Below, piece after piece: positions 8,357 to 63,875 of a stretch of DNA of 64,000 nt. The notes below the pieces were generated by a model. The model saw nothing but the letters and a program-made list of their open reading frames with translations. It made no database searches and had not been told where the DNA came from. Position 1 is the stretch's first letter, and each line of letters starts with the position of its first letter. The stretch is from a virus. The position numbers and the translations under genes were made by a program. Where the stretch lies: positions 1 to 64,000 of IMG/VR virus record IMGVR_UViG_3300050821_024094; one strand, 5' to 3'.

Positions 8357-8604
8357 GCCTGGAGCACTTTGAAGTCGACGGTGTCGAGCTCCTCGATGAC
8401 GGCAGGTGGGACTTCGGCGAGCTGGCCGAAGAACTTGGCTTGCGCACCGACGGGGTCTTTGTCCGCCTCTGTGAGGTGGCGAGAGTCCTTGAGCTTCGGC
8501 CGGCGGAGCGTCAGGCTCGGGTAGGTCGTCCCCTGGTACGTCACCGGGATGCTCAGTTTCACAACGTGCTTCTCGCCAGTCGATGGCGCAGCATTACCGC
8601 TCAT
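8317..8604 (-). CDS. E: tail assembly chaperone E
   Basis: A 95-residue protein of the P2 gpE / Phage_TAC type. It carries the family pattern: a beta-rich N-terminus, then LRRPKLKDSRHL, an acidic helix and LDTVDFKVLQAWVESF near the end. It ends in KK-stop exactly at the slippery run, as expected for a frameshifting tail chaperone gene. It lies between the tube gene and the tape measure gene. Confidence 0.85.
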   Translation of the reverse strand: MSGNAAPSTGEKHVVKLSIPVTYQGTTYPSLTLRRPKLKDSRHLTEADKDPVGAQAKFFGQLAEVPPAVIEELDTVDFKVLQAWVESFTKDIEKK

Positions 8605-24918: not shown

Positions 24919-25749
24919 TTACGCCACGCCGGCCTGCGCTTTGAGCGCGGCAGCAAGTGTCGGATCGGCGCGCGTGATGCGCATTTGCTCAGTGAGGTTC
25001 TCGGTGGGTTTCATCCAGGGGTTGGCTTTGGTGCCACTTCCCAGATTTCCGTTGCCGCTACCGGACGCGCCTGACCCGGAGTTCCCCGATGCTTCGAAGG
25101 CTCGCCCGAACTTCGGGTCCACCTTGAGCTTCTTGACGAGGTCCGTGATCGTCGAGTTGACGGGCTTGCCGTCCTTGATCGTGATGTCCGGGTTCCCGTT
25201 GGAGTCGAGCACTTGGACGCTGAAATGCCCGTCAGTCTCCACGACCTTGAGGCGTGGCTTGATGACGCCGAGCAGAAGCTCGGGGACGCCCTTCTCTTCG
25301 ATGATCGCCGTCGATGCATGGCTTTCGACCAGAAGTCGGGTGATCTCGCCGGAGAGCTGGCCTTCACGCTTGTCGCGCTTGCCAATTTCGTCGGTGTGCG
25401 ACTTGGTCAACTCCGTGACCTGGGCCTCCACTCGCGCTGCCGCGAGACGGTCGGCTTCGGACGCCGGGTCGATCTTCTTCAGACGTTCCAGATCAGCCAG
25501 TTGGGTCCGCAGCGTCTTGGGTGCTGGGAGACCCTTGTAGCCTTCGAGGGCGGCCTTGGCGCTGTCGAGCTCGCCTTTGGTGGATGCGAATGCGGACTTG
25601 AGACCATCGACGTTTTCGAGGGTCAGTCCGTTCACAGGCTCCACGGCGAGAATGAACTTGCCGGCGTTGTCGCCTTCGGTGACCGGGACGTAGAGAAGCT
25701 TGGTCGCGTCGTCGAGATTGTCGAGGGAATCGACAAGAGCTTTCAGCAT
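24919..25749 (-). CDS. scaffold protein (GP20-like)
   Basis: A 276-residue protein with a long charged helical middle (about 45-135) and a low-complexity GSGASGSGNGNLGSG linker near 220-235, followed by a short C-terminal helix likely to bind coat protein. This is the composition of phage scaffolding proteins such as the minor structural GP20 family. It precedes the capsid gene, as expected for a scaffold that directs procapsid assembly and then leaves. Confidence 0.75.
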   Translation of the reverse strand: MLKALVDSLDNLDDATKLLYVPVTEGDNAGKFILAVEPVNGLTLENVDGLKSAFASTKGELDSAKAALEGYKGLPAPKTLRTQLADLERLKKIDPASEADRLAAARVEAQVTELTKSHTDEIGKRDKREGQLSGEITRLLVESHASTAIIEEKGVPELLLGVIKPRLKVVETDGHFSVQVLDSNGNPDITIKDGKPVNSTITDLVKKLKVDPKFGRAFEASGNSGSGASGSGNGNLGSGTKANPWMKPTENLTEQMRITRADPTLAAALKAQAGVA

Positions 25750-26036
25750 TGCTTGATCCTGGGATTGAGGCGTCGCCTCGGTGACCGGATGCAGTCCGGC
25801 GGCAGGGAGCGCTCGGCTCCTGTGACCGGCATGACGGGCCGGCAGAACGCCGCACGCTTGGGGCTCGCCCTACGTGCAGGCCGTCAGAGACGGGGAAGAA
25901 TGGGCCGATCTCGCTAGGGAGACACGGCGCTTGGTTGAAGAAAGAACAGCGAAAATAGCCGCTATAAAAAAATGCGAATATGCAACTACCACAGGAAGGG
26001 TCCATCCTCGCATGGTTGGTCTACTGCGAGGTCGCC
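25750..26036. other. intergenic region flanking the moron block
   Basis: About 290 bases between the scaffold gene and the plus-strand ORF at 26037. The right half is AT-rich with a TATAAA-like hexamer at 25963-25968 that could serve the rightward ORF. No convincing gene is seen. Confidence 0.3.
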
Positions 26037-26213
26037 ATGACTCCCCACGAACTGCCAAAAGATGATCTCATCGAAATTGAGATCGGTAAGAATCAACGAG
26101 TGCGGATTGTCGGAAAGTTCGCGCTCGTGTCGGCCACAATCATCGCGGTCGCCGCACCCCTCAGTGGGATACTGAAGATCGCGTTCGGCCACATACTAAC
26201 GTTGTTTCGGTGA
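26037..26213 (+). CDS. small single-pass membrane protein (moron)
   Basis: A 58-residue protein read from the ATG at 26037 with GAGG 6 nt upstream. An acidic N-terminal segment (MTPHELPKDDLIEIEIGK) is followed by a 25-residue hydrophobic segment ending near the C-terminus. Orientation is opposite to the late genes and composition is AT-richer. It flanks the three-paralogue membrane operon. Confidence 0.5.
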   Translation: MTPHELPKDDLIEIEIGKNQRVRIVGKFALVSATIIAVAAPLSGILKIAFGHILTLFR

Positions 26214-26236
26214 TCAAGGTGCCGCGCTAACGCCAG

Positions 26237-26935
26237 CTACGCAAAATGTCGATACAGGTAGTCGATGCCGAAGAGGGCGGCGATGATGATGGTGACGAGA
26301 CCGCCGTAGACTAATGAATTCTGAATAGCTTTAAAGATCGCGTAGACGCGCAGCGGATGAAAGGGAACACCGATATATCGCAGAAACCACATTGTTCGAT
26401 GGTTCAGGTACATCAGAATAGACGGCGTAGGGACATCTAGCCTGAAGAAAGGAGAATGAGCTTTAAGCTCTCTCCAAGTCGCATCCGCCCACTCTTCCAA
26501 CTGCATTTTTCTACGGTTTCTTTCCTCTTCGCTCAATCCACGTTCTTCCAGCCTGTGGTACATGAGAGCCATCTGATCATTCGCGTCCACGCCCATCAAA
26601 TACCGTTGGTATTCCCGCTTGCTCAACGAGACTCCGCGCCCGCCTGAAAATACAACCACGCCCAGAACGTCATAGATGAGTGGTGGCAGGGGCGGCAGAT
26701 GCAGCTTCTGCACAAGGACGTGGACGAACTCACGATAGCCCGCGATCCAGTCCGATACGCGATGCCCAAATTCAACCAAGATCGGCCTGTGCGACAGTGG
26801 TACCTGTGCAACGCACCAATCCCAGGCGTCGATAACAAACTGCAACTTCGACAGAATGCTCACGAAACCGTGCAGCGCCCATACCGCAGACGCCAAGCCG
26901 AAAATCCACGCGGCGATCGTGCGCACGTTGGTCAC
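26237..26935 (-). CDS. paralogous membrane protein C (third of a tandem triplet)
   Basis: A 232-residue membrane protein. The GTG start at 26933-26935 forms a GTGA overlap with the upstream paralogue and aligns with its ATG. Layout: N-terminal membrane segment (about 5-28), a conserved block around GYREFVHVLVQKLHLPPLPP (near 65-84), a second hydrophobic segment, a charged variable middle with EEERNRRKMQLEEW, and a C-terminal membrane segment ending AALFGIDYLYRHFA. No known family is recognised. It is the last of three tandem copies. A superinfection-exclusion or membrane-defence role is possible but is inference. Confidence 0.7.
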   Translation of the reverse strand: MTNVRTIAAWIFGLASAVWALHGFVSILSKLQFVIDAWDWCVAQVPLSHRPILVEFGHRVSDWIAGYREFVHVLVQKLHLPPLPPLIYDVLGVVVFSGGRGVSLSKREYQRYLMGVDANDQMALMYHRLEERGLSEEERNRRKMQLEEWADATWRELKAHSPFFRLDVPTPSILMYLNHRTMWFLRYIGVPFHPLRVYAIFKAIQNSLVYGGLVTIIIAALFGIDYLYRHFA

Positions 26936-27621
26936 GCGAAATGTCGGTACAGGTAGTCGATCCCGAAAAGGGCGGCGATCACGAGCGCGACGAGGCCGCT
27001 GTAGAACGACGCCGTGATGGCCTGCGCAACGACCCTTGTTAGAGGTCCTAACAAGCTGATCAGTAGGGACGAGCCTGCAATTTTTTGTAAGACCCCAAGC
27101 TGCCATCGTAAAGCGATGCCGCTTGCCCGGCGATACAAGGAATATTTCATCACCGACGAAAACGGAAAGTCCAGCTCACGCATCTTCCTCATTCTATCGG
27201 CCTTAGAATCGGCCTCAGACATTGAGTTTATTATCTCTTCAGCCCTACGTCTGTCAGCAGCGCGAGTTTCGTCGTATGCCTTCATGTACCGCTTTTCGGC
27301 GAGGTTTGTAATCCACCGGCCTCTGGCCATCGAAAAGGCGGCAATGCCAGCCCAGTCATAGATCAACTGTGGCAGCTTCGGCAGATGCAGCATCTGGACC
27401 AGCCCATGCACCAGAGCACGATAGCCAGTCACCAATTGCGATATCAGCTTGCCGATTGTCAGCGCGACCGTCTTCACCGTCAGTGGTGCATGATTCGCGG
27501 ACCAGTCGAGGCTGTCGACAACGAATCCAAGTCGAGAAAGCGTGCTGAAGGTGCCGAAGATTGCCCAGACAAACAGCGCAATGCCGATCACCCAACTGGC
27601 GTACTTGCGGATGCTCGTCAT
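26932..27621 (-). CDS. paralogous membrane protein B
   Basis: A 229-residue paralogue of the two flanking genes. It begins MTSIRKYASWVIGIALF and shares GYRALVHGLVQMLHLPKLPQ, a hydrophobic IYDWAGIAAFSMARG segment and the identical end AALFGIDYLYRHFA. The middle, with ADRRRAEEIINSMSEADSKA, is a charged helix that differs from the other copies. ATGA overlap with the upstream gene and GTGA overlap with the downstream one show a translationally coupled operon. Function unknown. Confidence 0.7.
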   Translation of the reverse strand: MTSIRKYASWVIGIALFVWAIFGTFSTLSRLGFVVDSLDWSANHAPLTVKTVALTIGKLISQLVTGYRALVHGLVQMLHLPKLPQLIYDWAGIAAFSMARGRWITNLAEKRYMKAYDETRAADRRRAEEIINSMSEADSKADRMRKMRELDFPFSSVMKYSLYRRASGIALRWQLGVLQKIAGSSLLISLLGPLTRVVAQAITASFYSGLVALVIAALFGIDYLYRHFA

Positions 27622-28271
27622 GCGAAGTGCCGATAGAGGAAGTCGATGCCGAAAAGGGCGGCGAGGATGATGGCGACGGTGCCACAGTAAACGAACGAGA
27701 CGATCAATCTTGCGCGATATCGATCTAAATTGGTGTCAAGATGCGAGGTTTTGGAATATAGCCAACGTGATAACTGAAGAAGTAACAATGGAGAAGGGTC
27801 GTCGCGCATTTGCCCACGAGCACTGTACATTTCGGCCTCTTCCTTTGTTATCTCCGAATAGTCGTTCTTAGAAATTGCGGTTTCAATCTTTTGACGCCGT
27901 AATGCCAGCCTCTCGTGTTCTTTCAAAGCATCTCGGCGCTGAAGCCACTCTCCGCGCTTAATCGAAAACACTTCGAGCACGAGCACGTCATAAGCTTCCT
28001 GCGGCAAGCGCGGCAGCCGCAACATCTCGACTAAGCCGTGGACGAACTCGCGGTAGCCTCCGACGATCCCGGACACGTTTTTGCCAACCGCAAGCGCGAC
28101 AGCTCTGATGGAGATCGGAACTTGATCGACTGACCACGTCCAGCCGTCGACGAGGAACTTCAGCTCAGAGAAGATGCTGAAGGCCGACACCGTCGCCCAG
28201 CAGAACAGCACAATGCCGATCACCCAGCCAATAAACTTGAGCATGCGCTTCCCCCACGATACGGTCACCAT
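27618..28271 (-). CDS. paralogous membrane protein A (first of a tandem triplet)
   Basis: A 217-residue protein, or 208 if started at the internal ATG at 28244 (MLKFIGWVIG), which aligns better with the paralogues. The shared features are the N-terminal membrane segment, GYREFVHGLVEMLRLPRLPQ, and the C-terminal AALFGIDFLYRHFA. The middle is the most diverged, with KNDYSEITKEEAEMYSARG. It starts the triplet and its stop overlaps the next start by four bases. Confidence 0.7.
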   Translation of the reverse strand: MVTVSWGKRMLKFIGWVIGIVLFCWATVSAFSIFSELKFLVDGWTWSVDQVPISIRAVALAVGKNVSGIVGGYREFVHGLVEMLRLPRLPQEAYDVLVLEVFSIKRGEWLQRRDALKEHERLALRRQKIETAISKNDYSEITKEEAEMYSARGQMRDDPSPLLLLQLSRWLYSKTSHLDTNLDRYRARLIVSFVYCGTVAIILAALFGIDFLYRHFA

Positions 28272-28280
28272 ACCAGGGGC

Positions 28281-28658
28281 ATGAGAAACGCCACAATGAT
28301 CCGGTACAATATTTCGCTACCAGTGGTGTCGGCAGTTCTATTGCTCATAGCGTGCACGACGGCGGCACCAGCATACGAATGCTCGCAGGCCACTTTTCAA
28401 AGGGCTCGGCCAAAAGTGCAGCTATTATTCGGGGCAGGCATCCTACAAAACATGCCGAATCCCGAAGCTAGTCTTAGTGTTCTTGTAGCCGAGAACTATT
28501 GGGCGCGAATGACGTATCCGGAAAAGCAGAGGTTTGCCGACGAATTTGTGTGTGCCATTGCTGGGGCGGGCAAGGGACTCTTAAGTCTGAGTTTCAAATC
28601 CTTGATGAGCGGGAAGACGATCGGGGAATGGTCGGCTGGAACGCTTACCATCCCATAA
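28281..28658 (+). CDS. exported hypothetical protein (moron)
   Basis: A 125-residue protein with a signal peptide (IRYNISLPVVSAVLLLIACT...) cleaved near APA-YECSQ. The mature part has two cysteines that could form a disulfide and a helical segment with NYWARMTYPEKQRFADEF. It is divergently oriented from the membrane triplet and only 10 bp from it. The ATG at 28296 is an equally likely start. No known family. Confidence 0.55.
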   Translation: MRNATMIRYNISLPVVSAVLLLIACTTAAPAYECSQATFQRARPKVQLLFGAGILQNMPNPEASLSVLVAENYWARMTYPEKQRFADEFVCAIAGAGKGLLSLSFKSLMSGKTIGEWSAGTLTIP

Positions 28659-28679
28659 GACCGTGCACGGGGAAATACA

Positions 28680-29000
28680 TCAGGTCAGCACCCAGGCAGT
28701 GATGTCTGCGCCGGTTCCAGTCGCGCGCACGGCGCGGATGATCAGCCAATCGATGACGGTGAGGCCGACCGGAACCTTGAGGTCCACATGCACGCTGTCG
28801 TCCTGGCACTCGACGGTGACCGCGCGGATCACCTCGGCTGCCGTGCCAGCGTTGAACACCGCAAGCTTGCCGTAAACCGGCAAGTCGTTGGTGTCGTTCG
28901 GCGTGACCGGCAGAGCATCCCTCGCCGGCGCGATCGCACGATGCGAGGCGCAGGAGAATTTGAGCACGTCGCTGGAAGAGACATACGAGTTCGTGGTCAT
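28680..29000 (-). CDS. small structural-type protein (head region)
   Basis: A 106-residue beta-rich protein with NDTNDLPVYGKLAVFNAGTA (36-55) and VGLTVIDWLIIRAVRATGTG near the end. The spacing and the terminal RAVRATGTGA motif are common to small phage head proteins encoded near portal and capsid genes. It is the first late gene after the moron block when read leftward. Function is inferred to be structural. Confidence 0.5.
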   Translation of the reverse strand: MTTNSYVSSSDVLKFSCASHRAIAPARDALPVTPNDTNDLPVYGKLAVFNAGTAAEVIRAVTVECQDDSVHVDLKVPVGLTVIDWLIIRAVRATGTGADITAWVLT

Positions 29001-30490: not shown

Positions 30491-30564
30491 TGGAGCGGGG
30501 AGCTGGAATTGAACCAGCACGTTCCGGCTGGAGACCAGGTGCTCTACCGTTGAGCTATCCCCGC
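30491..30564 (-). tRNA. tRNA, probably Gly(UCC), with atypical anticodon loop
   Basis: A 74-nt cloverleaf with encoded CCA. Acceptor GCGGGGA pairs with TCCCCGC, followed by discriminator T and CCA; D-arm GCTC/GAGC with loop AACGGTA; T-arm GCTGG/CCAGC with TTCAATT loop. The acceptor, D-loop and T73 are tRNA-Gly-like. The anticodon stem (CCTGG/CCGGA) has one mismatch and a wobble, and the loop TCTCCAG gives UCC at 34-36 but C rather than U at position 33. A Trp (CCA) reading is possible only if the stem is shifted, which breaks pairing. The gene lies in the late transcript between portal and head genes. Confidence 0.75.
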
Positions 30565-31236: not shown

Positions 31237-32895
31237 TTACGCCGCACCGATCTGGTCTTGCAGACCTTGATTGTCGTCTTTCGCGAGCAGAATTTTCTTG
31301 CCGGTGTTGCCGGTGTCGCCGACTTTCGGATCTTTTGGAGCACCGGGACCACCACCGGCCGCCGCAGTCGCAGCCGCGAGCGCCGCTGCTTGCTTGTTGT
31401 CCTCCTCCAATTGCTTGGCGAGGCGTTGCTCTTCGACCTCGGGATCGAACTGCGGTCCGAGGAAACCACGACGCGCCCACTCATCCCACAGCGTCTCGCG
31501 CGAGATGACACGGCTGTCGTGGGCTTCCATGAGCTCGGTGTTCTCGTTGGTCTCGCGCAGCTCCACACCGAAGTCGGTGTGGATGTAGACCTCGGGCTCG
31601 GCCTGAATGTTGAGCCACATGGCGGTGAAGACGAACAATTCCTCGAGCACGTCCTTTTCGTCGGACGCCCAGGCTTCGGCTGCGGCGTGAGCCTTGGCGG
31701 CATTGACGGCCTCTGCCGTTGCGGTGATGTGCCCGCCACCGCGCACGATCGGCGCCATGCCGAGCTTTGCCATTTGCTCCTCGATCTTGTCGACCTGGGC
31801 TTGCAGCTTCTCGATGGATTGACCGGCAGGCTCGATGAAGGTCCAGCTCGGGATCGACGACGTGAGGCCCGGTTGAGGAGGTGCAAAGCACACGAGGCCC
31901 GGTCCGATTCGAAGCTGCATCGGTTGTCCGGTGGCCGGGTCGATCGGCGGCGAGATGCCGTTGCCCGATAGCATTGGGAAGGCCGCCTGCAGGAGGATGT
32001 GCTTGAGGTTCGAGCTCTGCTGATAGTGCTCGATTTGCAAGTAGGCCAAGTCGGTCATCGGAGAGACGCAGGCGTTCGTCCACCACTCGCGCTCGCCCGG
32101 CTTGAACAAGCGGAACGGGAGTTCTGGCAGCGTGATGAAGCCCCCACCGACGAGCGCCCAGCCGGTGCCACCGACCTCCCAGAGCTGCCAGGTGCGATTG
32201 ACACCATCGTCATCGAGCACGCGCACGCGGCGCACCGGGATCTCTGAAAAGCCAACGCGCTTGACGATGTCCTCGCGCAGACGGACGTGCTTGACGTACT
32301 TCCGCCCTGCCCGCATCTCCGTGTAGAGCGCGATGATGTCCTCTGCCCGATACATGGACCAGTAGGGGCGAGCGCCCAGGCGCCGCTCATCAGCGAGCGT
32401 CGAACCGGGATTGACGTTTGGGTAATCGACGAGCAGCCCGACGACGCCGAAGGCGACGCCCTCCTTGAAGATGTCACGGGCGAACTTGTGCAGCGAGACG
32501 CCATGGCCGTCCACATCCTCCGCGATCTCGCGGATTTGCGGCGAGATGTCGTCACCCTGGAGCGCGACCTCTTTCGAGAACGGCTTCGAGGTGATGCTGT
32601 TGACGGAGTCCTTGAAGTGATTGACGAAGGGCGCGTACTTGTTGCGAGCCGTGTATTCGGTGTCGCTCTCCTCCGTGAACCGCGGAAGATAGAGCTCGCC
32701 GGCCGCACGAATACGACGCGCTCCGCCGAGGATGTCGCGGATCAGACTCCATTCGGGGAGAGCCGCCACATAGGCGAGCGACGGGACCGAGGGATCGCCG
32801 CCCTGTTCGATGAGCGATTGCGCGGGGAGCGGCGTGTCGCTCGTGAGCGGAGACCGGAAAGGGTCCGCCTTCTTCTTGCTGGTTGGTCGTTTCAT
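31237..32895 (-). CDS. portal protein (DUF4055)
   Basis: A 552-residue portal protein of the DUF4055 family. Typical features are FVNHFKDSVNSITSKPF (89-105), a VGLLVDYPN motif near 152, the MYRAEDIIALY segment near 181 and the TDLAYLQIEHYQQSSNLKHI helix around 285. The C-terminal 60 residues are acidic and alanine/glycine-rich. Twelve portal subunits form the ring through which DNA is packaged. It lies downstream of the terminase in the same direction, with an unusual 5 kb of small and accessory genes between. Confidence 0.88.
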   Translation of the reverse strand: MKRPTSKKKADPFRSPLTSDTPLPAQSLIEQGGDPSVPSLAYVAALPEWSLIRDILGGARRIRAAGELYLPRFTEESDTEYTARNKYAPFVNHFKDSVNSITSKPFSKEVALQGDDISPQIREIAEDVDGHGVSLHKFARDIFKEGVAFGVVGLLVDYPNVNPGSTLADERRLGARPYWSMYRAEDIIALYTEMRAGRKYVKHVRLREDIVKRVGFSEIPVRRVRVLDDDGVNRTWQLWEVGGTGWALVGGGFITLPELPFRLFKPGEREWWTNACVSPMTDLAYLQIEHYQQSSNLKHILLQAAFPMLSGNGISPPIDPATGQPMQLRIGPGLVCFAPPQPGLTSSIPSWTFIEPAGQSIEKLQAQVDKIEEQMAKLGMAPIVRGGGHITATAEAVNAAKAHAAAEAWASDEKDVLEELFVFTAMWLNIQAEPEVYIHTDFGVELRETNENTELMEAHDSRVISRETLWDEWARRGFLGPQFDPEVEEQRLAKQLEEDNKQAAALAAATAAAGGGPGAPKDPKVGDTGNTGKKILLAKDDNQGLQDQIGAA

Positions 32896-32940: not shown

Positions 32941-33003
32941 TGCGAGGTACGGGAGTGAGTTATGCGAGGTAGGCGGGTGAGTTATTGGTCACGTTATTGG
33001 TCA
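32941..33003. repeat. iteron-like direct repeats
   Basis: Two tandem 22-bp copies of TGCGAGGTA-N6-GTGAGTTA (32941-32962 and 32963-32984; three mismatches) run into two copies of GTTATTGGTCA (32981-32991 and 32993-33003) with 12-bp period. The spacing is that of iterons or of an array of protein-binding sites. Confidence 0.7.
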
Positions 33004-33088
33004 TTCGCTGTTGACTCACTTGCGGTATCGCCAAAAACCGCGCACGAGAACGGCAATGCTCTCAATGGGTTGTCTGGTAGAAATCCTC

Positions 33089-33110
33089 TCATGGCAGAAG
33101 TCTGCCATGA
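33089..33110. promoter_or_regulatory. 22-bp perfect palindrome
   Basis: TCATGGCAGA-AG-TCTGCCATGA. It could be an operator or a short hairpin. It has no T-tract on either side. Confidence 0.5.
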
Positions 33111-33287
33111 CAAAGTTTGCGAAATTCAGAGGTAGAATCACAATTTTCGAGGCTTGTTAGTCTGCAAGTGCAGGCGCTTGGCCAAATTGTGGCGAAAGTT
33201 CTCCCCGCGCGTGTCTTGCATTCTTGGTTATGCTGACCCCCCATACCCCCTGCCCTTGGGTTCCTGATTCTTAAAGGAAGGAAACCC

Positions 33288-33434
33288 ATGGGCGCCCCAC
33301 CGGAAAAATTAGAGATCAACATCTGCGTTCGCGCAGAAGGACGGACCGCGAGTAGAGCCGCGGCCGTCATCGCCGCGTCGATCGCAATACTTGCCGCCGG
33401 CCTGATCCTTTGGTCAGTCGTGAAGCATCTTTAG
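33288..33434 (+). CDS. 48-residue membrane protein (moron)
   Basis: ORF starting MGAPPEKLEINICVRAEGR with a very strong AAGGAAGG Shine-Dalgarno sequence. Residues 24-44 form a hydrophobic segment (AAAVIAASIAILAAGLILW). An N-out or N-in single-pass topology cannot be decided. It starts a rightward accessory group inside the late region. Confidence 0.6.
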   Translation: MGAPPEKLEINICVRAEGRTASRAAAVIAASIAILAAGLILWSVVKHL

Positions 33435-33487
33435 ACTGCGGCGACGTGTCCCCCGTAAAAATCCCAATAGCGAGAAAAGCGCGACCA

Positions 33488-33529
33488 TATCTTGGGCGTT
33501 GCGCCGCGAGGCGATAACAACCCAAGATA
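33488..33529 (+). promoter_or_regulatory. structured leader (inverted repeat TATCTTGGG / CCCAAGATA)
   Basis: A 9-bp inverted repeat encloses a GC-rich inner stem (GCG..CGC) and ends 3 nt before the AAGGAG ribosome-binding site of the ORF at 33548. Confidence 0.45.
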
Positions 33530-33547
33530 ACAAGGAGTTTAATCGCC

Positions 33548-33763
33548 ATGATCGACTGGCGCATTACGGTTCGCAGATGTCTCAATCGCATGAACGCATG
33601 GTGCGTTTACAAGGAGCGAGGAACCAACGGCACAGCAATGGCCACACGCAAAGAGCTCTCGCACCACAGGTCATTCGAGATCGCGCAAAGGCGCGCGACA
33701 TATCTGAGGGCCTTACCGCACTGGGTGTGGGAACAACTGCACTCGGTTGGGAGCCGGGACTAA
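33548..33763 (+). CDS. hypothetical small protein
   Basis: A 71-residue basic ORF starting MIDWRITVRRCLNRM, with AAGGAG 10 nt upstream and a structured leader before it. The composition is arginine/tryptophan-rich and no family is recognised. It is included because of the good ribosome-binding site and the absence of a competing gene. Confidence 0.4.
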   Translation: MIDWRITVRRCLNRMNAWCVYKERGTNGTAMATRKELSHHRSFEIAQRRATYLRALPHWVWEQLHSVGSRD

Positions 33764-33852
33764 CCGGGGATAGACTTAGAGAACGTGAACCTGAGCTAAC
33801 CGCAGGTGGCCGGCGTGCTAGACTTCCCGCGTTAGAGCACGGGGTGATTTCG

Positions 33853-34251
33853 ATGAGGACAAAGTATCTGCTTGGCGCCGCCGGGCTACTCGGCGTAGCC
33901 AGCATGCCGATTCCCGTCAGTGCGCAGGGCGCCGAGCCGAAGTTCGAAACCGTCCAGGACCTTTATCGGATGTGCACGGGCGGTGGTTTTGAGCGCTTTG
34001 GTTGCCTCGGCTTTATTAGCGGAGCGAATGGCGAGATGTCCTTATTCGGCGCGCTCGCCGATTCCCTTCGCGACCCGAGGGACCGTGTGCTGGTGAAGGA
34101 GCAGTCAGTGTGCGGCAATGGCACCAACGGAGCGGCGGTTCAGGCTTTCAAAAAACTGGGCAGAAAAACACCCGGAGATGTGGAGCAAGCGACCTCTGAC
34201 GGGCATCATCCTTGCCTTGCGCGAAACGTGGCCGTGCAAGTGACCGTTTAG
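33853..34251 (+). CDS. Rap1a/Tai-like exported immunity-type protein
   Basis: A 132-residue exported protein read from the ATG at 33853. A signal peptide ends near PVSAQG. The mature part has LYRMCTGGGF, CLGFISGANGEM, a later QSVCGNGTNGAAVQAFKK and a final HHPCLAR; this order of cysteines with a CxGFISG-type segment resembles Rap1a/Tai immunity proteins that neutralise T6SS amidase effectors in the periplasm. The match is partial, so the function is uncertain. It faces the ClpP-like gene, and the two ends overlap by four bases. Confidence 0.5.
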   Translation: MRTKYLLGAAGLLGVASMPIPVSAQGAEPKFETVQDLYRMCTGGGFERFGCLGFISGANGEMSLFGALADSLRDPRDRVLVKEQSVCGNGTNGAAVQAFKKLGRKTPGDVEQATSDGHHPCLARNVAVQVTV

Positions 34252-35309
34252 TGGGCGTTGGGCTTCACACATACTGACAAAAGCCCAGGCAACTTTGCCG
34301 CGCCCTCGCTCATTGGCAAGTCTTCAAATCCCGCGAATACCGGGGCGCTCCGCGTCCCCTGAAGAGCCAGACCAACGTTCTTGGCAGTCGCAATGCGAGT
34401 CATAAGATTTCCATCGACGCCATACATCGCATTAACCCACCCGTTGATTATCTTCCTCTCGATCCTGTAGTTTTCAATCGGAATGTACTGCCCGTCGACG
34501 ACCAAAGAGTCTGCGCTCATCCTCATAATCACATCTCCTTGTACTCCCGCATCAAAAATAAAATGCAGAAATGGCTTTCCATCAGATGGGCAAACAATAA
34601 GAAGCTTATTGATTCCGTTGACAGTCTCTCGTTGGCCTTTGAGATAAATTCCGCCCTCAAAGCTCTCAATCGTCCAAGCAACCGACCCGCGTCCGTTGTT
34701 GATCACTCCTAATCGAAGAAGCTCCGGTTCAGCCAAGGTGACAGCCCGATCTCTGCCAGCGCGAGTAGCAATGGAGAACAACTCGGTCGAAACGCCCATC
34801 TCCTTGATGTAAGCCACGACGGCGGCAGACAAGACCTGTGTGAGGTCGCTTTCATTCGGCATCGGCTTGTCGAAGAAAAACCTATGCACGCCGTATACAG
34901 AACCGTTTCCGAGGTATCGATATCTGCCTCCGAGAAAAGCGAGCGCACAGGCGCTAACACAAAATCCCGGCTGCACCTTCTCGCGTTTTTGGCCAACTTG
35001 TATGGTTAGATTGTGCTTCCGGATTGTCCGGCCCAACTCGATACCTCCCAATAAATTGCCCCCCGGTGAATCGATAACCATTAAGCTTCCGTCTATGATC
35101 TTTCGCGCCTGAATTAGGGCGTCGAGCCGCTTGCCCGCGTCGGCATCAATTTCACCGGATGCGTAAATTTGCCATCTGAAATCACCCATGAGCGCCGAAA
35201 CGGCTTCATTAGGGGGCTCGACGGCGAATTGCATCGTCTCTGCGTTCGCAGAGTTACAAAGCAATACCGTAACTACTATTGCCGCGAGTGGTCCCCATTG
35301 CCTTGTCAT
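34248..35309 (-). CDS. periplasmic ClpP/crotonase-like protein (COG3904 type)
   Basis: A 353-residue exported protein; the start at 35307-35309 is chosen for the GGGGG upstream. After a signal peptide (MTRQWGPLAAIVVTVLLC...) the IDSPGGN oxyanion-type loop (80-86), the CVSAC motif with probable nucleophile S119, and the YGVHRF histidine (H142) form a ClpP-like arrangement. The family occurs in rhizobial genomes and phage accessory regions without known substrate. The last 130 residues form an additional beta-rich domain. The AT-richer composition and gene order mark it as cargo. Confidence 0.65.
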   Translation of the reverse strand: MTRQWGPLAAIVVTVLLCNSANAETMQFAVEPPNEAVSALMGDFRWQIYASGEIDADAGKRLDALIQARKIIDGSLMVIDSPGGNLLGGIELGRTIRKHNLTIQVGQKREKVQPGFCVSACALAFLGGRYRYLGNGSVYGVHRFFFDKPMPNESDLTQVLSAAVVAYIKEMGVSTELFSIATRAGRDRAVTLAEPELLRLGVINNGRGSVAWTIESFEGGIYLKGQRETVNGINKLLIVCPSDGKPFLHFIFDAGVQGDVIMRMSADSLVVDGQYIPIENYRIERKIINGWVNAMYGVDGNLMTRIATAKNVGLALQGTRSAPVFAGFEDLPMSEGAAKLPGLLSVCVKPNAH

Positions 35310-35404
35310 TGGCGCGCCCCCGATCAATGCATCCCGCCACCATGACTCCAGGTCGGCTCAACTGCAACGACGCATCCGGCCGGTCCACACTTCGAGATGT
35401 TTCC

Positions 35405-35647
35405 TCAAATCTCGCCCGGCTCCTCGGGTCGCACGAGACGCGCGAGTATGAAGGCAACAAAGGATACGGCGCCGAAAAAGAGAGCCCCGGTCAAGGCGAG
35501 CATGATGACAATCATCAACCCCTCGCCCACATAATCGCGTGAGATAACTCTGTAGACCAAACTGGCAGCGAACACCGCCGTGCACACAGTGGCGATGCTC
35601 CGCATACCTCTCATCAAGCGCGTTAAGATCAGGCGGATAAAGCGCAC
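35405..35647 (-). CDS. two-pass membrane protein
   Basis: An 80-residue protein with a basic N-terminus (MRFIRLILTRLMRGMR) and two hydrophobic segments, about 17-32 and 44-70, ending with acidic residues. No family is recognised. It lies upstream of the ClpP-like gene in the same direction and might work with it. Confidence 0.5.
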   Translation of the reverse strand: MRFIRLILTRLMRGMRSIATVCTAVFAASLVYRVISRDYVGEGLMIVIMLALTGALFFGAVSFVAFILARLVRPEEPGEI

Positions 35648-35722
35648 CCCGTCACCTCCAAATACGGCTCAGACGAGCCTATCGTGACCGCCAGAGACGT
35701 CACTGATGGGAGATACGAGCCC

Positions 35723-39933: not shown

Positions 39934-40380
39934 TTAGGCGGCTTCGCAGAACATCTGCGCGCCGAACTGGAAGTTCCGGCAGGTGAGGTAGTTGCGCGAT
40001 CGGTCGCCGAACTTGGCATCCGACACGCTCTTGTCGATCGGGATCGCTTCGAGCCCTCGGATCACGAGCATGTCCTTCGTCCACAGATCGAGCGACGCCA
40101 TCGCTCCGCGCTTCACCCGCCCCGCCAGATGGGCATTGTTCGCCCAGTTATAGGGTTGGGCGACGCCACAGAAGTAGAGGATGTTCCCCTCGGGATAGGC
40201 GAGTTCGACATCGCGATTGATCGGTGACTTGAGGCCGAAGTTCTTGTCGAACTTTCCGACCAGGCAGCGAGCGCAGTGTACGTTTTCGTTGAACCCCTCG
40301 ACCGTCTTGAGCCAGAGATAGCGCCAGCCCCGCAAATGAAGGGCGTGCGAGCGAATGTGGTAGGAAACCCCGTCAGCCAT
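39934..40380 (-). CDS. unknown protein coupled to ParB-methyltransferase
   Basis: A 148-residue protein with no family that I recognise. It contains CARCLVGKFDKNFG (36-49), a NILYFCGVAQPYNWANNAHL segment (about 66-85) and a cysteine in a YLTCRNFQFG segment, an alpha/beta pattern with several cysteines and aromatic residues that could be an enzyme core. Its start overlaps the stop of the ParB-methyltransferase gene by 8 nt, so the two are translationally coupled, and a terminator follows. A joint role in DNA or nucleotide modification is inferred from the operon. Confidence 0.6.
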   Translation of the reverse strand: MADGVSYHIRSHALHLRGWRYLWLKTVEGFNENVHCARCLVGKFDKNFGLKSPINRDVELAYPEGNILYFCGVAQPYNWANNAHLAGRVKRGAMASLDLWTKDMLVIRGLEAIPIDKSVSDAKFGDRSRNYLTCRNFQFGAQMFCEAA

Positions 40381-41755
40381 AGATTGCCCTTACTGCCGCC
40401 TTGACGTCTTCCCCCCGGCCTAGTCGGCGGTCGTCACTGACCGGAAGATCGAACTCGTAGTCGCAGGCGGCGAGCATGTCATCGAGCGGAAGGTCTCGCT
40501 CCTTGACCGCTTCAATCTGCCATGACGTGCCCGTGTGCGAATGCACCAGCGCGCGAAACCCGAAGCGCGGAGCAATCGCCGCCGCCTCGGGCTTGGTGTG
40601 GAACTTCTGATAGAACCAGCGCCCGTCACGGTAGAGCGCGGTGAAGCCGTCCTTGTCCGGGAACTCGACGTAGCGCCGGCTGTTCTGAATTTTCGTGGTG
40701 TTGTTCATGTGCTCGATCGCTTCGACCGGGCGACCTGAAAAGAACACGCGACCACCCTTGGCAGCGAGCATGTTCAACACAGTCATCACGGCGGTTTCAG
40801 CTTGTCGGCAATCGACCGAGTTCAGGACGCTGTCGCAGACAACATGATCGTATGGACCGTTATCGTATAGCGAGCGCGTCATCGCAGTGACCATAGTATT
40901 GACTTCCCGCATGTCAATACTTTGAGACGCGCCGACCCTACGAAAAAGCTCGATGTCGAAAAAATCAAGTCCTCGTTTGCGCATCGCATTCGCGTAGTCT
41001 CCCTGGCCGGAGCCGAAGTCGATAAAGCGAGCGGTCTTATTCTTCATCGCGAACGGGATGACATGCTGCTCGTAGAGGGTCGACTTGCCGCCTCGCGTTT
41101 GCCCGCGCAGCCGCTTCATCTGCGCGAGCGTCTGAATGAAGGTGTCCTTCTTCAAGTGCGTGTAGGAGAAGACGCCATACTGGCGATCGAGGAAGGCGCG
41201 GTACTTGCCCTCGTCCGCGTCCGCGATGACGAAGGTCGTGAGCTTCGTGCGCGTGAGACCGGCCGCGAGCGCGTACTGAGCGGCGTGAATGACCCGACCT
41301 GACTTCGTCGCAACGACACCGCCCCAAGGTCCATACTTCACGATCAGATCGGCGATCGCGGTGCGCACGTTCGCGAGTTTGGAGCGGTAGTTCCCCGTGA
41401 TCCGCGAAGGCTCGACGATTGTGAAGCCGAGTGCGTCGAATCCGCCTGTGATCCTCACCATCTCATCGCCACCGTCCATGTCGGTGCCGTTGTGGAGTTG
41501 GTTGAAGCGGACCTCGTCGTAGGTGGTGGTGTCGCGCGGGAGCACGTAGACCGGTGCGGTCGTGTAGCCGAGGCTGCGCAGCGCCTTCGTGCGTTGATGG
41601 CCCGCGACCAGGAGTGTGCCGCGCACGATCAGCGGTTTGACAAGGCCGAGGTCGCGGATGCTCTCCGCGAGCTTGGTCAGATCATCCTCGTTGATGTGGC
41701 GCGGATTGTACTCGGCACCCCGGAGGCGGGTGATGTCGTAATTCAGGTCAAGCAT
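40373..41755 (-). CDS. ParB-like domain fused to SAM methyltransferase
   Basis: A 460-residue two-domain protein. Residues 1-75 are a ParB/Srx-like domain (YNPRHINEDDLTKLAESIRD, LLVAGHQRTKAL at 48-59). From about 225 a class I methyltransferase fold begins, with the SAM motif DFGSGQGDY (246-254) and VVCDSVLNSVD (305-315). The region between (100-220) is a separate helical domain. The ParB part may confer nucleotide hydrolysis or CTP/DNA binding; the target of methylation is unknown, with DNA, RNA and nucleotide all possible. It overlaps both neighbours by 8 nt. Confidence 0.75.
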   Translation of the reverse strand: MLDLNYDITRLRGAEYNPRHINEDDLTKLAESIRDLGLVKPLIVRGTLLVAGHQRTKALRSLGYTTAPVYVLPRDTTTYDEVRFNQLHNGTDMDGGDEMVRITGGFDALGFTIVEPSRITGNYRSKLANVRTAIADLIVKYGPWGGVVATKSGRVIHAAQYALAAGLTRTKLTTFVIADADEGKYRAFLDRQYGVFSYTHLKKDTFIQTLAQMKRLRGQTRGGKSTLYEQHVIPFAMKNKTARFIDFGSGQGDYANAMRKRGLDFFDIELFRRVGASQSIDMREVNTMVTAMTRSLYDNGPYDHVVCDSVLNSVDCRQAETAVMTVLNMLAAKGGRVFFSGRPVEAIEHMNNTTKIQNSRRYVEFPDKDGFTALYRDGRWFYQKFHTKPEAAAIAPRFGFRALVHSHTGTSWQIEAVKERDLPLDDMLAACDYEFDLPVSDDRRLGRGEDVKAAVRAIYG

Positions 41756-42392
41756 TCTTGCGCCCTTCGATCAGATACGAAGCAAAGCCGTAGTCCGCGC
41801 CCATCTCCTCGACGTACTTGTCTTTGAGCGCGGTCAGCGCCACGACCTCCTCGTCCGTCATCGAGACCTTGACGTCGCCGAAGCGAAGGAAGTTGCGCGA
41901 GGAACCGCGGGACTCATCGCCATCGACGCCGAAGTTCACGAGGTCGTCGGGGTCCAGAAGCTTCGAGAGCTCGGAGCTTGAGAAGCCGAGAAGGCTGGTG
42001 TCGAAGTTGAGCTCGGCGAGGCCAGCGACCTCGACCTTGAGCATGTCCATGTCCCAGCCCGCGTTCTCCGGGAGCTTGTTGTCCGCGATGACGTAGGCGC
42101 GGCGCTGCGCCTCGCTCCAGCCATGCGCGACGATGCACGGGACCTTGTCGATGCCGAGCTGTTGGGCCGCCATGATCCGACCGTGACCGGCGATGATGCC
42201 GTTGTCGGGATCAATGAGCACCGGAATGGTCCAGCCGAACTCCCGGATCGAAGCCGCGATCTGCCCGACCTGCGCCGGCGAATGCGTGCGCGAGTTGCGC
42301 GCATAGGGGATCAAATCCGCCGTCGCGCGGGTGACGATCTCGGATGCCGGCCACCTCTTGGTGTCATCCGCCTTGCGTGCCTGTTTGGTCAT
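41748..42392 (-). CDS. ParB/Srx-like domain protein (orphan methylase-type N-domain)
   Basis: A 214-residue protein. Residues 25-110 match the ParB-like domain usually fused to phage adenine methylases: IPYARNSRTHSPAQVGQIAA, then IIAGHGRIMAAQQLG and AYVIADNKLPENAGW. Here the methylase part is absent; the C-terminal 75 residues are a different acidic/helical segment. It is the first gene of the leftward operon and overlaps the ParB-methyltransferase by 8 nt, so the missing catalytic part may be supplied in trans. Confidence 0.75.
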   Translation of the reverse strand: MTKQARKADDTKRWPASEIVTRATADLIPYARNSRTHSPAQVGQIAASIREFGWTIPVLIDPDNGIIAGHGRIMAAQQLGIDKVPCIVAHGWSEAQRRAYVIADNKLPENAGWDMDMLKVEVAGLAELNFDTSLLGFSSSELSKLLDPDDLVNFGVDGDESRGSSRNFLRFGDVKVSMTDEEVVALTALKDKYVEEMGADYGFASYLIEGRKNA

Positions 42393-42439
42393 CTGCCAAA
42401 GTTATCCTCGGTTGTCGCTTAAAAAATCTCACTCGATTG

Positions 42440-42476
42440 TTGCATCCGGTCGGGACCGTGGTACTTATATGGACCA
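42440..42476 (+). promoter_or_regulatory. promoter with 18-bp palindromic operator (copy 1)
   Basis: A -35-like TTGCAT (42440-42445) precedes the palindrome TGGTAC-TTATAT-GGACCA (42459-42476), which covers the expected -10 position. The ParB/KorB-like gene starts 33 bp downstream. Confidence 0.6.
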
Positions 42477-42484
42477 ACGAAAAC

Positions 42485-42493
42485 ACCTACCAC
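42485..42493 (+). promoter_or_regulatory. start-associated motif (ACCTACCAC)
   Basis: Variant copy of the leader motif, 15 nt before the ATG at 42509, with CACGGAGAC between. Confidence 0.55.
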
Positions 42494-42508
42494 ACGGAGA
42501 CGACGACG

Positions 42509-43450
42509 ATGACCACGGCCACCGAAACCAAGACGACTGTTGCCCGCAAGACGAAGTTCATTGCCCTCGCGAACGTCATCGCGAACCCGAACCAGCCGCG
42601 CAAAGATTTCGACGACGCGCATATCCGGGAGCTGGCGAGCTCCATCGCCAAGCACGGACTGATCCAGCCAATATCGGTGCGCCCGATCGAGAAGGCCGTC
42701 GGCAAGACGACGACCTACATGATCATCGCCGGCGAATGCCGCTACCGCGCCCACAAGCTGCTGGCCGAGGAAGGCAAGCTCGATGCTCCGGTCGTCGAGG
42801 CCATCGTTTCAACCGACGTTGACGACACTCAGATGCAGGTGCTCGCCATCATCGAGAACGCCAAGCGCAAGGACGTCAATCCGATGGAGGAGGCCGACGC
42901 CTTCCAATTCCTCCTCGACACCGGCATGACGATCGCCCAGGTCCAGCGCGAGCTGGGCTTCGGCTCCCGAGGCCGGGTGACCGATCGCCTCAACCTGCTC
43001 AAGCTGGAGGACAACGCCAAGACACTGGTGCGCTCCGGTCAGCTCTCCGCCTGCTTCGCCGCAGAGATCGCCACCCTCCCCGCTCACATGCACACGCGGA
43101 TGATCCGCAAGGTGTCGACGGGCGAGTTCAAGAGCATCGATCAGATACGCGCCGCCTGCTCGGCCATCCGCGAGGCGAACGAGCAAGGCAGCATGCTCGG
43201 TGGAGCGCCGGCAGCGACCGACGGCGAGATGCGCACGCTCCGCAGCATGGAAGCGCGGATCGACGATGTGCTCAAAATGGTCAACGCAGGTTTCAAGGAC
43301 GGCGAATGCCAGATCGCCAAGAAGGCTGATCCAAACCGCACGACTGCAATGGCCGACAAGCTGGCTGCCGTGCGATCCGCCATCACGGTGATGGAGTTCC
43401 AGCTCCGCAAGGCATCGGCAGTCGCCGACCTGCTCGAAACCGCCGCCTGA
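42509..43450 (+). CDS. ParB/KorB-like partition or regulatory protein
   Basis: A 313-residue ParB/RepB/Spo0J-family protein. The N-terminal ParB domain has NPNQPRKDFDDAHIRELASS (27-46), the GECRYRA-type CTP-binding motif at about 75-81 and the ENAKRKDVNPMEEADAF segment. An HTH (MTIAQVQRELGFGSRGRVTD) follows near 143-162. The C-terminal helices probably dimerise. Family members bind palindromic parS or operator sites. No ParA gene is near, so a KorB-like regulator is as likely as a partition protein. The palindromes at 42459, 47952 and 50312 are natural candidate targets. Confidence 0.85.
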   Translation: MTTATETKTTVARKTKFIALANVIANPNQPRKDFDDAHIRELASSIAKHGLIQPISVRPIEKAVGKTTTYMIIAGECRYRAHKLLAEEGKLDAPVVEAIVSTDVDDTQMQVLAIIENAKRKDVNPMEEADAFQFLLDTGMTIAQVQRELGFGSRGRVTDRLNLLKLEDNAKTLVRSGQLSACFAAEIATLPAHMHTRMIRKVSTGEFKSIDQIRAACSAIREANEQGSMLGGAPAATDGEMRTLRSMEARIDDVLKMVNAGFKDGECQIAKKADPNRTTAMADKLAAVRSAITVMEFQLRKASAVADLLETAA

Positions 43451-44271: not shown

Positions 44272-44886
44272 ATGATCAAGTCGCGCCTCGTACGCCCTGC
44301 GGGCTTCATCGAACCTTGCATTCCGGTCCTTGCTGACAAGCCGCCGACCGGTGAGCAATGGGTGCATGAAATCAAATACGACGGCTACCGCCTACAGGTG
44401 CATCGCAACGGCGAGCGCGTGCGCATCTTCACACGGCGCGGATTTGACTGGACGGATCGTTTTCCCGTCATCGCGTCGACGGCGCTGACGCTCAAGGCGA
44501 AAGCCTTCATCCTGGACGGTGAGGGTGTGGTCACAGACGCTGCAGGTGTGACGCAATTCGATCAGCTTCACGGCCATCGGCGCTACACGAGCGCGTTTTT
44601 GCAGGCGTTCGATCTTCTGTCGATCGAGGGCGATGATTTGCGCCGTCTTCCGCTGTTCGATCGCAAGGTGCTGCTGGACGGGCTGCTTATGGGTTCATAT
44701 TCGGGCATCGTCAACGATGGGCACGTGAAGGCACTCGGCGCGGTCGTGCTGGCCAAAGCGTGCCAACTCGGTCTGGAAGGCATCGTGTCGAAAAAGATCG
44801 ACGCGCCGTATCGCAGCGGCAAAAGCGGCGATTGGATCAAGGTTCGCAATCCCGAGGGACATGCAGCGAAACGGTTTGAGCGGTGA
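44272..44886 (+). CDS. ATP-dependent DNA ligase, adenylation domain only
   Basis: A 204-residue LigD-type nucleotidyltransferase domain. It holds the motif I active lysine in EIKYDGYR, the RRGFDWTDRFP motif, DGEGVV with FDQLHG, FDLLSIEGDDLRRLPL, the GLEGIVSKK motif IV and WIKVRN motif V. No OB-fold domain follows, so it is much shorter than a full ligase. Stand-alone domains of this kind are frequent in Bradyrhizobium and relatives. In the phage it may help nick sealing or be passive cargo. A C-terminal remnant of a second copy follows at 45069. Confidence 0.8.
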   Translation: MIKSRLVRPAGFIEPCIPVLADKPPTGEQWVHEIKYDGYRLQVHRNGERVRIFTRRGFDWTDRFPVIASTALTLKAKAFILDGEGVVTDAAGVTQFDQLHGHRRYTSAFLQAFDLLSIEGDDLRRLPLFDRKVLLDGLLMGSYSGIVNDGHVKALGAVVLAKACQLGLEGIVSKKIDAPYRSGKSGDWIKVRNPEGHAAKRFER

Positions 44887-47064: not shown

Positions 47065-47775
47065 TCAATCCGCCTCTAAAATATCCCCCAGGGCAATCTT
47101 ATCGATCAAAGTCGCGTCGTCATCGCTCGTGCGTGAACTATTCACACGTTTTGACACCGGCCACTTCTGCAACACGTCTTCGCCGGCCGGCTTCATCAGC
47201 GCGACGGCGTCGTTCGCGTCACCGTGTTCCCATTGCTCAAAGTCTTTGGCTTCGAGGATCACGGGCATGCGATCGTGGACTTCCGCAACGAACTTGTTCG
47301 GCACGGTGATGACCATCGTCGTCGACAACAGGTCGCTGCCGGCGTCCTTGTCTTTCCACTTCGACCACAAACCCGCGAACGTGATCGGATGCCCATCGCG
47401 CCGGGTGAAGTACCAAGGCTGCGGCTGCTTTACTCCGGTGGTGTGTTGCCATTCGTAATAGCCACTTGCCAGCATCAGGCAGCGACGATGCTTGAAGGAG
47501 TCTTTGAACATCGGCTTCGTCGCAACCGTTTCTGCGCGCGCGTTGAACGTCGCCATCTTCATTTCTTTGAGCGTCTTGTCCCACCAATACGGGATCAGCC
47601 CCCAGCGCATTGGGACAAGAGAGCGCTTGCCGTCAGTTGAGATCACGACGTCAACGGGCGTCGTCGGACAAATGTTGTAACGGGGCTGCGTATTGCGCGC
47701 CGGTGCGTCGAGGGTCAGCCGATACAGCCGGACAATCTCTTCCCAGGTCAGCTTGTAGGTGTACCGCCCACACAT
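47065..47775 (-). CDS. SRAP (HMCES/YedK-like) abasic-site peptidase
   Basis: A 236-residue SOS-response-associated peptidase. Cys2 after the initiator methionine (MCGRYT), NARAET near 77-82, GYYEW near 104-108 and HDRMPVIL near 166-173 are the conserved active-site motifs. HMCES proteins crosslink to abasic sites in single-stranded DNA and protect replication forks. In this phage it may shield replicating DNA, or be host cargo. It diverges from the early operon at 48038. Confidence 0.9.
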   Translation of the reverse strand: MCGRYTYKLTWEEIVRLYRLTLDAPARNTQPRYNICPTTPVDVVISTDGKRSLVPMRWGLIPYWWDKTLKEMKMATFNARAETVATKPMFKDSFKHRRCLMLASGYYEWQHTTGVKQPQPWYFTRRDGHPITFAGLWSKWKDKDAGSDLLSTTMVITVPNKFVAEVHDRMPVILEAKDFEQWEHGDANDAVALMKPAGEDVLQKWPVSKRVNSSRTSDDDATLIDKIALGDILEAD

Positions 47776-52934: not shown

Positions 52935-53279
52935 ATGGCACTCCCAGCGACATACCGACCACGCGAAGGCGACATCCTGATCCTGCACGCGAGGGTCAAG
53001 CACAGCTTCACAGGCAGCGACGACGGGCTGTACGTCGAGATCGAAGGTCACTACAGCACGCCGTGCCTTCCACCGGAGAGTTTCGCAGGTGTCCATCGCC
53101 TCGGCTTCGAGGTTGGTGACTACGTTTGGCACGTCGACCAGCAAGCACACGCCACCGTGCTCGCGATCAACGGCAACCAAGCTTGGATCAAGTGGCAGAT
53201 CGGCGGGTCCACCATGGTCATTGCCATGACTGACCTAGAGCGCAGCGCGCGCCCGGAGCAAGCGGAGGCCGCGGAATGA
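52935..53279 (+). CDS. hypothetical early protein
   Basis: A 114-residue beta-rich protein (REGDILILHARVKHSFTGSD, GLYVEIEGHYST, then VGDYVWHVDQQAHATVLAIN) that resembles small barrel domains. Its stop overlaps the start of the HtpX-like gene by four bases, which suggests coupling. Confidence 0.55.
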   Translation: MALPATYRPREGDILILHARVKHSFTGSDDGLYVEIEGHYSTPCLPPESFAGVHRLGFEVGDYVWHVDQQAHATVLAINGNQAWIKWQIGGSTMVIAMTDLERSARPEQAEAAE

Positions 53280-54124
53280 ACACGCTCAAGACGACGCTGC
53301 TCCTGACCGCAATGATGGCAGCGTTCCTCGCCATCGGTAATTTGTTTGCCGACACCGCCGGCGCGGTGGTCGGCTTCATCGCCGCCATCCTGTTCGGTGC
53401 GCACACCTACTGGTACGGGCTTCAGAACGCCGTGCGCACGCATCAAGCCAAGCCCGCCGACTTCGCCCGCAAGCGAGAGCGACAGTTGATCGAGCTGGTC
53501 AACGAGCTCGCGAGAAACGCAGGCATCCCGACGCCTCGCGTCTTCGTGTTCGACAGCGCCCAGCCGAATGCGTTTGCCGCCGGGCGCGGACCGAGTCATT
53601 CCGCGATCATCGTCTCGACCGGGCTACTGGCCTGCCTCGATTGGAACGAAATCGCCGGCGTGATCGCGCACGAGCAGGCGCATATCAAGAACCGCGACGC
53701 GCTCACGATGACGGTTGCCTCTGGCCTGGCCGGCGTGATCGCCTTCCTTGCGGGGACCATCGCCATGCTCGGGCTGGCCAACCGCCGGGGCGGCGGGATC
53801 GGTGCGATCGTGTTCGGCGCCATCATGGCGCTTGGGGCGCTTGTGCTCCAAGCCATGCTCGGCCGGTCACGAGAGTATGTCGCCGACCGTGATGGCGCAG
53901 CGATCTGCGGTCACCCACTTTGGATCGCCAGGGCATTGCGCCGCATGAGCGGAGGAACGAAGCAGGTCAATCATGCTGCGGAGAGCAACCCGGCTCTATC
54001 GGCCCTCTACTTCGTGAACCCTCTGTCCGGGGGTTGGGTGGCGAGGATGTTCTCGACTCACCCGCCCGTTGAGAAGAGAATCAGACGACTGGAGCGAATG
54101 ACCGAACACGGAGGGACTAAGTGA
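53276..54124 (+). CDS. htpX: HtpX-like membrane metalloprotease (M48)
   Basis: A 282-residue M48 protease. Two N-terminal membrane segments (about 7-24 and 28-46) are followed by the zinc site HEQAH (132-136), two more membrane segments (145-165 and 176-195) and the third ligand region REYVADRDGA (E200). Length and order agree with bacterial HtpX, which degrades damaged inner-membrane proteins. An HtpX gene inside a phage early operon is unusual; it could remodel host membrane proteins. It overlaps both neighbouring genes. Confidence 0.88.
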   Translation: MNTLKTTLLLTAMMAAFLAIGNLFADTAGAVVGFIAAILFGAHTYWYGLQNAVRTHQAKPADFARKRERQLIELVNELARNAGIPTPRVFVFDSAQPNAFAAGRGPSHSAIIVSTGLLACLDWNEIAGVIAHEQAHIKNRDALTMTVASGLAGVIAFLAGTIAMLGLANRRGGGIGAIVFGAIMALGALVLQAMLGRSREYVADRDGAAICGHPLWIARALRRMSGGTKQVNHAAESNPALSALYFVNPLSGGWVARMFSTHPPVEKRIRRLERMTEHGGTK

Positions 54125-63107: not shown

Positions 63108-63875
63108 ATGACCAGCGACAAGAACACGCCATATGCGATGCAACTGGCGGATATCCTTGCGAGAATCGAATCGCGACAGAAGGTGGTCGGACTTAGTGAC
63201 CACGCCGCCAGTCTCGAGGCAGGGCTGTCTCGTGACGCAATCCGAAGCATGCGCCGCGGCTTGAAGGACGGCAAACAAGAGGGGGTGCAGTCCAGAACTA
63301 TCCGCGCGCTCGCGGCACCCCTGCACACGACACCTGAATGGTTGATGACTGGCGAAGGGCCGGAGTCTCTCGACGCCGACGAGATTGCACCGCGTGCGCC
63401 CTTCCTCGAGGTGGTGGGAGAGATAGCCGCTGGCGTGTGGATTGCGGCAGACAAGCACTTGGTCGACCCGCCGCGCCTGCCTTATTTGGTCCCTCCAGAC
63501 CCCATGTATTCGCAGTCAGCGCAATTTGCGCTGATCATGCGCGGCTCATCGTTCAACCGATACGCCGCAGATGGCGACGCCGTCATTTGCATCGACGTGC
63601 GGCGGGCGAACCTGCGACTTCAGAACAACGATTTGGTTTTGGCCTGGAGCGTTCAAGTCGGCGGCTCCCTGAGAGAAATCACGGCGCGTCGACTGCATCT
63701 GCAGCGAAACGGTACTGGCGAGCTCACCTATGAATCGACGGATGATCGCTTCGCGTCGACGACCGAGCGCGTCTCACTGCGAGACGAAGGCCGTGTGACT
63801 AAAGTCGGAGCAGCGGAGATTTCAGTCACTGCCGTCGTGTGTGGCATCTATCGCTCCGTGCCACGCGGAAATTAG
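63108..63875 (+). CDS. S24 (LexA/CI-like) phage repressor
   Basis: A 255-residue repressor. The N-terminal HTH (about 24-55: GLSDHAASLEAGLSRDAIRS) precedes an S24 C-terminal domain with cleavage-type VVGEIAAGVW (A108-G109), probable nucleophile S148 in MRGSSFNRYAADGD and the strand with ITARRLHL. At the place where the catalytic lysine of the Ser-Lys dyad is usual (TxKRL) there is arginine (R194). Ribosome-binding site is weak. It likely maintains lysogeny from the operator at 62970-63019. Confidence 0.88.
   Translation: MTSDKNTPYAMQLADILARIESRQKVVGLSDHAASLEAGLSRDAIRSMRRGLKDGKQEGVQSRTIRALAAPLHTTPEWLMTGEGPESLDADEIAPRAPFLEVVGEIAAGVWIAADKHLVDPPRLPYLVPPDPMYSQSAQFALIMRGSSFNRYAADGDAVICIDVRRANLRLQNNDLVLAWSVQVGGSLREITARRLHLQRNGTGELTYESTDDRFASTTERVSLRDEGRVTKVGAAEISVTAVVCGIYRSVPRGN

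Follow-up and report, generated by a model that had tools for sequence, protein, structure and literature searches.

Three overlapping genes for predicted membrane proteins in a cargo island between the scaffold and portal genes of a probably temperate phage

Background

The described systems closest to the locus reported here are superinfection-exclusion proteins such as SieA of phage P22, an inner-membrane protein of 162-164 aa that is predicted to have three TM segments and prevents the injection of DNA, and whose types are less than 30% identical to each other (PMC10883804), and moron or accessory cargo genes lying between late genes, of which HK97 gp15 is an example (cited in PMC11436027). 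The locus considered below consists of three consecutive genes, here termed A, B and C, which lie in the head region of a phage genome and encode predicted membrane proteins.

Phage context

The window, that is the whole stretch of 64,000 bases that was analysed (bases 1-64000 of the 74777-base IMG/VR virus record IMGVR_UViG_3300050821_024094), comes from a bacterial virus akin to phages of soil bradyrhizobia. Its head region is confirmed by matches for the portal, scaffold and capsid genes, the last identified via homologues annotated as capsid, and the presence of a repressor indicates that the phage is probably temperate. Near its right end the record was suspected to encode an integrase, but no family matched the candidate. 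The features on which the argument draws are the following:

1355-1870: CHAP protein, a lysis candidate, with a tail lysozyme as best PHROG
2504-2971: holin (GTA_holin_3TM; PF11351, E 8e-21)
24919-25749, minus strand: head scaffolding protein, left neighbour of the island (phrog_206, E 2.7e-32)
25931-28679, no strand assigned: AT-rich island, taken as inserted cargo, GC 0.535; left edge approximate, right edge at the stop of the 28680 gene
26037-26213, plus strand: orphan ORF of 58 aa, hydrophobic near the C-terminus, read from the sequence
26237-26935, minus strand: gene C, 232 aa, whose GTG start overlaps the gene B stop (GTGA)
26932-27621, minus strand: gene B, 229 aa, whose start overlaps the gene A stop (ATGA)
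27618-28271, minus strand: gene A, first of the trio, 217 aa, with hydrophobic segments at the N- and C-terminus
28281-28658, plus strand: orphan exported protein of 125 aa, or 120 aa if translation starts at the ATG at 28296, with a signal peptide and a possible lipobox LIAC
28680-29000, minus strand: right neighbour of the island, homologue of 7964-8278 in the relative L005 (53%)
31237-32895, minus strand: portal protein (phrog_145, E 1e-99)
63108-63875: repressor (phrog_4, E 1.2e-9)

Elsewhere the window encodes an HtpX-like membrane zinc metalloprotease at 53276-54124 (PF01435, E 1.3e-34; NCBIfam HtpX model, E 1.2e-81, under the model cut-off), three adjacent genes with ParB N-terminal domains at 40373-43450, one of which additionally has a weak methyltransferase-like domain, a protein with a SRAP peptidase domain at 47065-47775 and one with an ATP-dependent DNA ligase domain at 44272-44886.

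The trio lies in an inserted cargo island

A preliminary description of this DNA had placed the three genes between scaffold and portal, in a stretch richer in AT than its neighbours and flanked by small membrane or exported genes on the opposite strand, and all of this is borne out. The trio has a GC content of 0.539 against 0.624-0.633 in the neighbouring head genes, and the island as a whole stands out in the same way against the 0.62-0.63 of the surrounding phage genes, with GC dropping near 25930 (0.69 to 0.52) and recovering to 0.63 at 28680. Both flanking plus-strand products, the hydrophobic one on the left and the one with a signal peptide on the right, had no relatives in family and database searches.

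The same description had also regarded the site as one where head genes are expected, and in this respect it has to be revised. In the close relative L005 (IMGVR_UViG_3300015203_000030), the capsid of which is 73% identical, the homologue of the 28680-29000 gene ends at 8278 and the scaffold gene starts at 8472 with nothing between them, and the scaffold leader can be made out both there and in the window. The trio is likewise absent from two further close relatives, L132 and L134, with portals 62 and 57% identical, respectively, the sequence of L134 stopping not far past the site, and none of the more distant loci fetched via the capsid gene carries it. Taken together, the GC steps, the empty site in L005 and the absence of the trio from L132 and L134 identify the island as inserted cargo, or a "moron". 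The empty site leads us to reject the trio as a set of head genes and, as the relatives keep their head genes without the island, it is dispensable for the virion. Both the insertion and the orphan status of the triplet are well supported.

The wider interval between portal and scaffold is variable, and relatives hold other accessory genes in it: exported Trypsin_2 (trypsin-like) proteins in L005 (6940-7740) and L134 (7422-8222), a collagen-like gene in L134 as well, and in a further relative, L047, an opposite-strand ORF with a signal-like start that points to export. A tRNA-Gly (TCC) is found among the late genes of the window at 30491-30564, and the corresponding interval of Bradyrhizobium phage BDU-MI-1 contains a tRNA-Asn. 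Past the portal gene there is a second AT-rich stretch (32960-35720), probably another cargo island, comprising a plus-strand ORF for an exported product (about 33850-34251) and, on the minus strand, a gene for an exported ClpP-like protease (34248-35327; phrog_26024, E 2.7e-5).

Three old paralogues kept by protein-level selection

The three consecutive minus-strand genes had been described as paralogues, and identical residues at 87/202, 80/210 and 78/207 aligned positions for the three pairs (43, 38 and 38%) confirm this. Local alignment scores between them range from 313 to 344, whereas 500 shuffles give means of about 32 and maxima of 49-68; the best shuffled score is thus exceeded about five- to sevenfold, and the paralogy is not due to chance. 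The architecture previously outlined, with a membrane segment and a conserved block at the N-terminus, charged variable middles and a near-identical end, is also recovered. A, B and C align without gaps over an N-terminal block of 98 residues, their charged middles differ in length and sequence, and their final 14 residues are nearly invariant; the invariant columns include GYR..VH.LV..L.LP.LP...YD and AALFGID.LYRHFA.

At residues shared between the copies in the N-terminal block, synonymous codon differences number 24/40 for A and C (26.3 expected if saturated), 20/43 for A and B (27.8 expected) and 17/41 for B and C (26.8 expected). Such values, near those of independent codon choice, indicate that the three genes are old copies whose conserved blocks are kept by selection at the protein level, and that all three have long been retained. 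The many synonymous differences at conserved residues rule out recent duplicates, and degenerate or frameshifted copies are equally ruled out as all three reading frames are intact. The similarity of the gene ends at the DNA level, noted earlier, is real, with the last 72 nt being 79-85% identical. Counted over those of the last 14 residues that are identical within a pair, synonymous differences amount to 6/13 for A-B, 6/13 for A-C and 4/14 for B-C. The A-B rate equals that of the N-terminal block, whereas the A-C and B-C rates fall somewhat below theirs, and recent gene conversion is rejected on these grounds. Protein constraint is the better explanation, the DNA similarity being mostly due to conserved residues, but a small old conversion tract may be present at the gene ends, where B and C are closer to each other.

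The two stop/start overlaps that had been taken as a sign of translational coupling are present, and reading of the sequence found no Shine-Dalgarno-like sequence upstream of the starts of B and C. In combination these features make termination-reinitiation the likely mode of translation of B and C, and the genes are thus apparently coupled. The real start of gene A may be the ATG at 28244, which yields a protein of 208 aa, is preceded by a better ribosome-binding site, GGGGGAAG, and agrees better with the alignment of the paralogues. No convincing promoter of its own was found for the trio (3 promoter-like sites versus 1.5 +/- 1.5 in shuffles), and terminator-like sites number 5 versus 3.0 +/- 1.5 in shuffles.

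Hydrophobic peaks are observed at both ends of each protein (A, 13-31 and 189-207; B, 11-29 and 201-219; C, 7-25 and 206-224), and a weaker peak lies between residues 47 and 96. The positive N-terminus and the slightly acidic loop that follows suggest an N-in topology; the middle would be periplasmic if there are two membrane passes and cytoplasmic if there are three. AlphaFold models of gene A with its paralogues (pLDDT 46) and of the N-terminal block (pLDDT 50) contain only helices at low confidence and are too poor for fold comparison.

Searches for homologues

The trio had been assigned to no known family, and none of the searches matched it to a holin or transporter that has been characterised. 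Searches of Pfam, PHROGs, NCBIfam, PADLOC and PDB gave nothing significant, the best PDB match (E 0.58) being chance-like, and neither the 50,697 phage records nor the 72,556 plasmid records searched by tblastn contained a match. Four pattern scans of IMG/VR and one of GTDB contigs yielded no confirmed relative; such scans detect only fairly close relatives, and absence from these collections does not amount to absence in nature. Profile searches of genome samples drawn around Bradyrhizobium hipponense (266 from the genus, 397 from the order, 385 from the class and 398 from the phylum, the samples overlapping) also recovered no relative; this species was chosen only via a capsid relative, so the host group may fall outside. 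Two weak matches read in detail proved unrelated, one lying in an ORF that looks like PlsY and the other in a probable metallopeptidase, both named from reading. The remaining weak matches are no more than expected by chance, and many have in-frame stop codons. At present the trio is thus a real orphan family of predicted membrane proteins.

Possible functions

The trio is probably cargo that changes the infected cell and not a part of the virus shell. As the best explanation, which we put forward tentatively, the three proteins would be translated together and form a complex in the inner membrane by which the host cell is altered, most likely through superinfection exclusion at DNA entry. The trio forms the core of the cargo island, the insertion of which separates two late genes of the probably temperate phage. 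On this proposal, ribosomes would pass from A to B to C on a single message by termination-reinitiation and so supply three related inner-membrane proteins in linked amounts. Their common N- and C-terminal membrane parts would allow them to pack together or act side by side, the divergent charged middles might provide each with a separate partner, and the host inner membrane could be changed so as to stop other phages at the step of DNA entry, as P22 SieA does. Several points weaken exclusion as the function. No island protein has a homologue, and guilt by association is accordingly of no help; to our knowledge, exclusion proteins are usually encoded by single genes and not by triplets; and the trio shares the direction of the late genes and has no clear promoter, which counts against expression in the lysogen and makes production only late in the lytic cycle possible. 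A bolder form of the proposal, speculative and rather unlikely, is that of a new phage-borne membrane family working only as three co-translated paralogues, a hetero-oligomer assembled through the shared ends, with the middles recognising different targets such as entry proteins of competing phages.

Other explanations have to be weighed against superinfection exclusion. The occurrence of membrane proteins together with an exported protein in one island, and of other exported genes in the second AT-rich block of the window and in relatives, would also be expected if the trio and the 28281-28658 product acted as partners in a lysogenic conversion of the host envelope serving some other purpose, such as stress, transport or surface change; neither family nor neighbour indicates a specific trait, however, and we consider this possible but not likely. 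An abortive-infection or other anti-phage defence module, in which the trio senses infection, disrupts the membrane and kills the infected lysogen, would suit a cargo island in a probably temperate phage and proteins with helical membrane ends and charged variable middles, and paralogues with diverged middles could sense different triggers. Yet the trio lacks a match in PADLOC, Pfam or NCBIfam, and no nuclease, nucleotide-binding or enzyme domain is recognised in it, leaving such a module unlikely.

The orientation shared with late genes, the helical membrane character of the proteins and the lack of a clear promoter could equally fit late accessory lysis proteins, that is auxiliary holin-, antiholin- or spanin-like products co-transcribed with the head genes. 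This is quite unlikely in view of the length of the proteins, which are long for holins, and the absence of a match to any lysis family, and a holin or lysis gene was dropped as the main idea because the holin and CHAP candidates are encoded elsewhere, making a holin role for the trio unlikely. Virion or head-assembly proteins peculiar to this phage would account for the position between scaffold and portal and for the head-gene orientation, but relatives have the same head genes without the trio, the insert is AT-rich with opposite-strand neighbours, and each protein has two hydrophobic membrane segments; we regard this as very improbable.

Phages often acquire genes that modify the envelope, but it is unusual for one cargo island to contain three sister genes that overlap, are old and encode membrane proteins. 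If the trio does exclude phages, it would represent an exclusion device with several parts and a new family of proteins, and, the middles being divergent, deleting the genes singly would be a direct test of target specificity.

Comparison with known systems

As small helical membrane proteins A, B and C resemble GTA_holin_3TM and other phage holins, but they match no holin model and the phage has its own holin candidate at 2504-2971. Among known anti-phage defence systems, no PADLOC model matches the trio. With SieA of P22 the trio shares several hydrophobic segments and a place outside the core virion functions, and SieA too comes from a temperate phage and has strongly diverged variants. In contrast to the trio, SieA is encoded by a single gene (162-164 aa); none of A, B and C shows the SieA motif FxRYPxEAxxFNK, and searches of Pfam, PHROGs and, by tblastn, phage records gave no significant match that would link the trio to SieA. 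Unlike moron genes of the HK97 gp15 type, the island has three overlapping paralogues and not one gene, and it is without a detectable homologue. Like them, it is an insert of deviant GC, differing in base composition from its surroundings, between late genes that lie next to each other in the relative L005, and its product is probably one that acts on the envelope.
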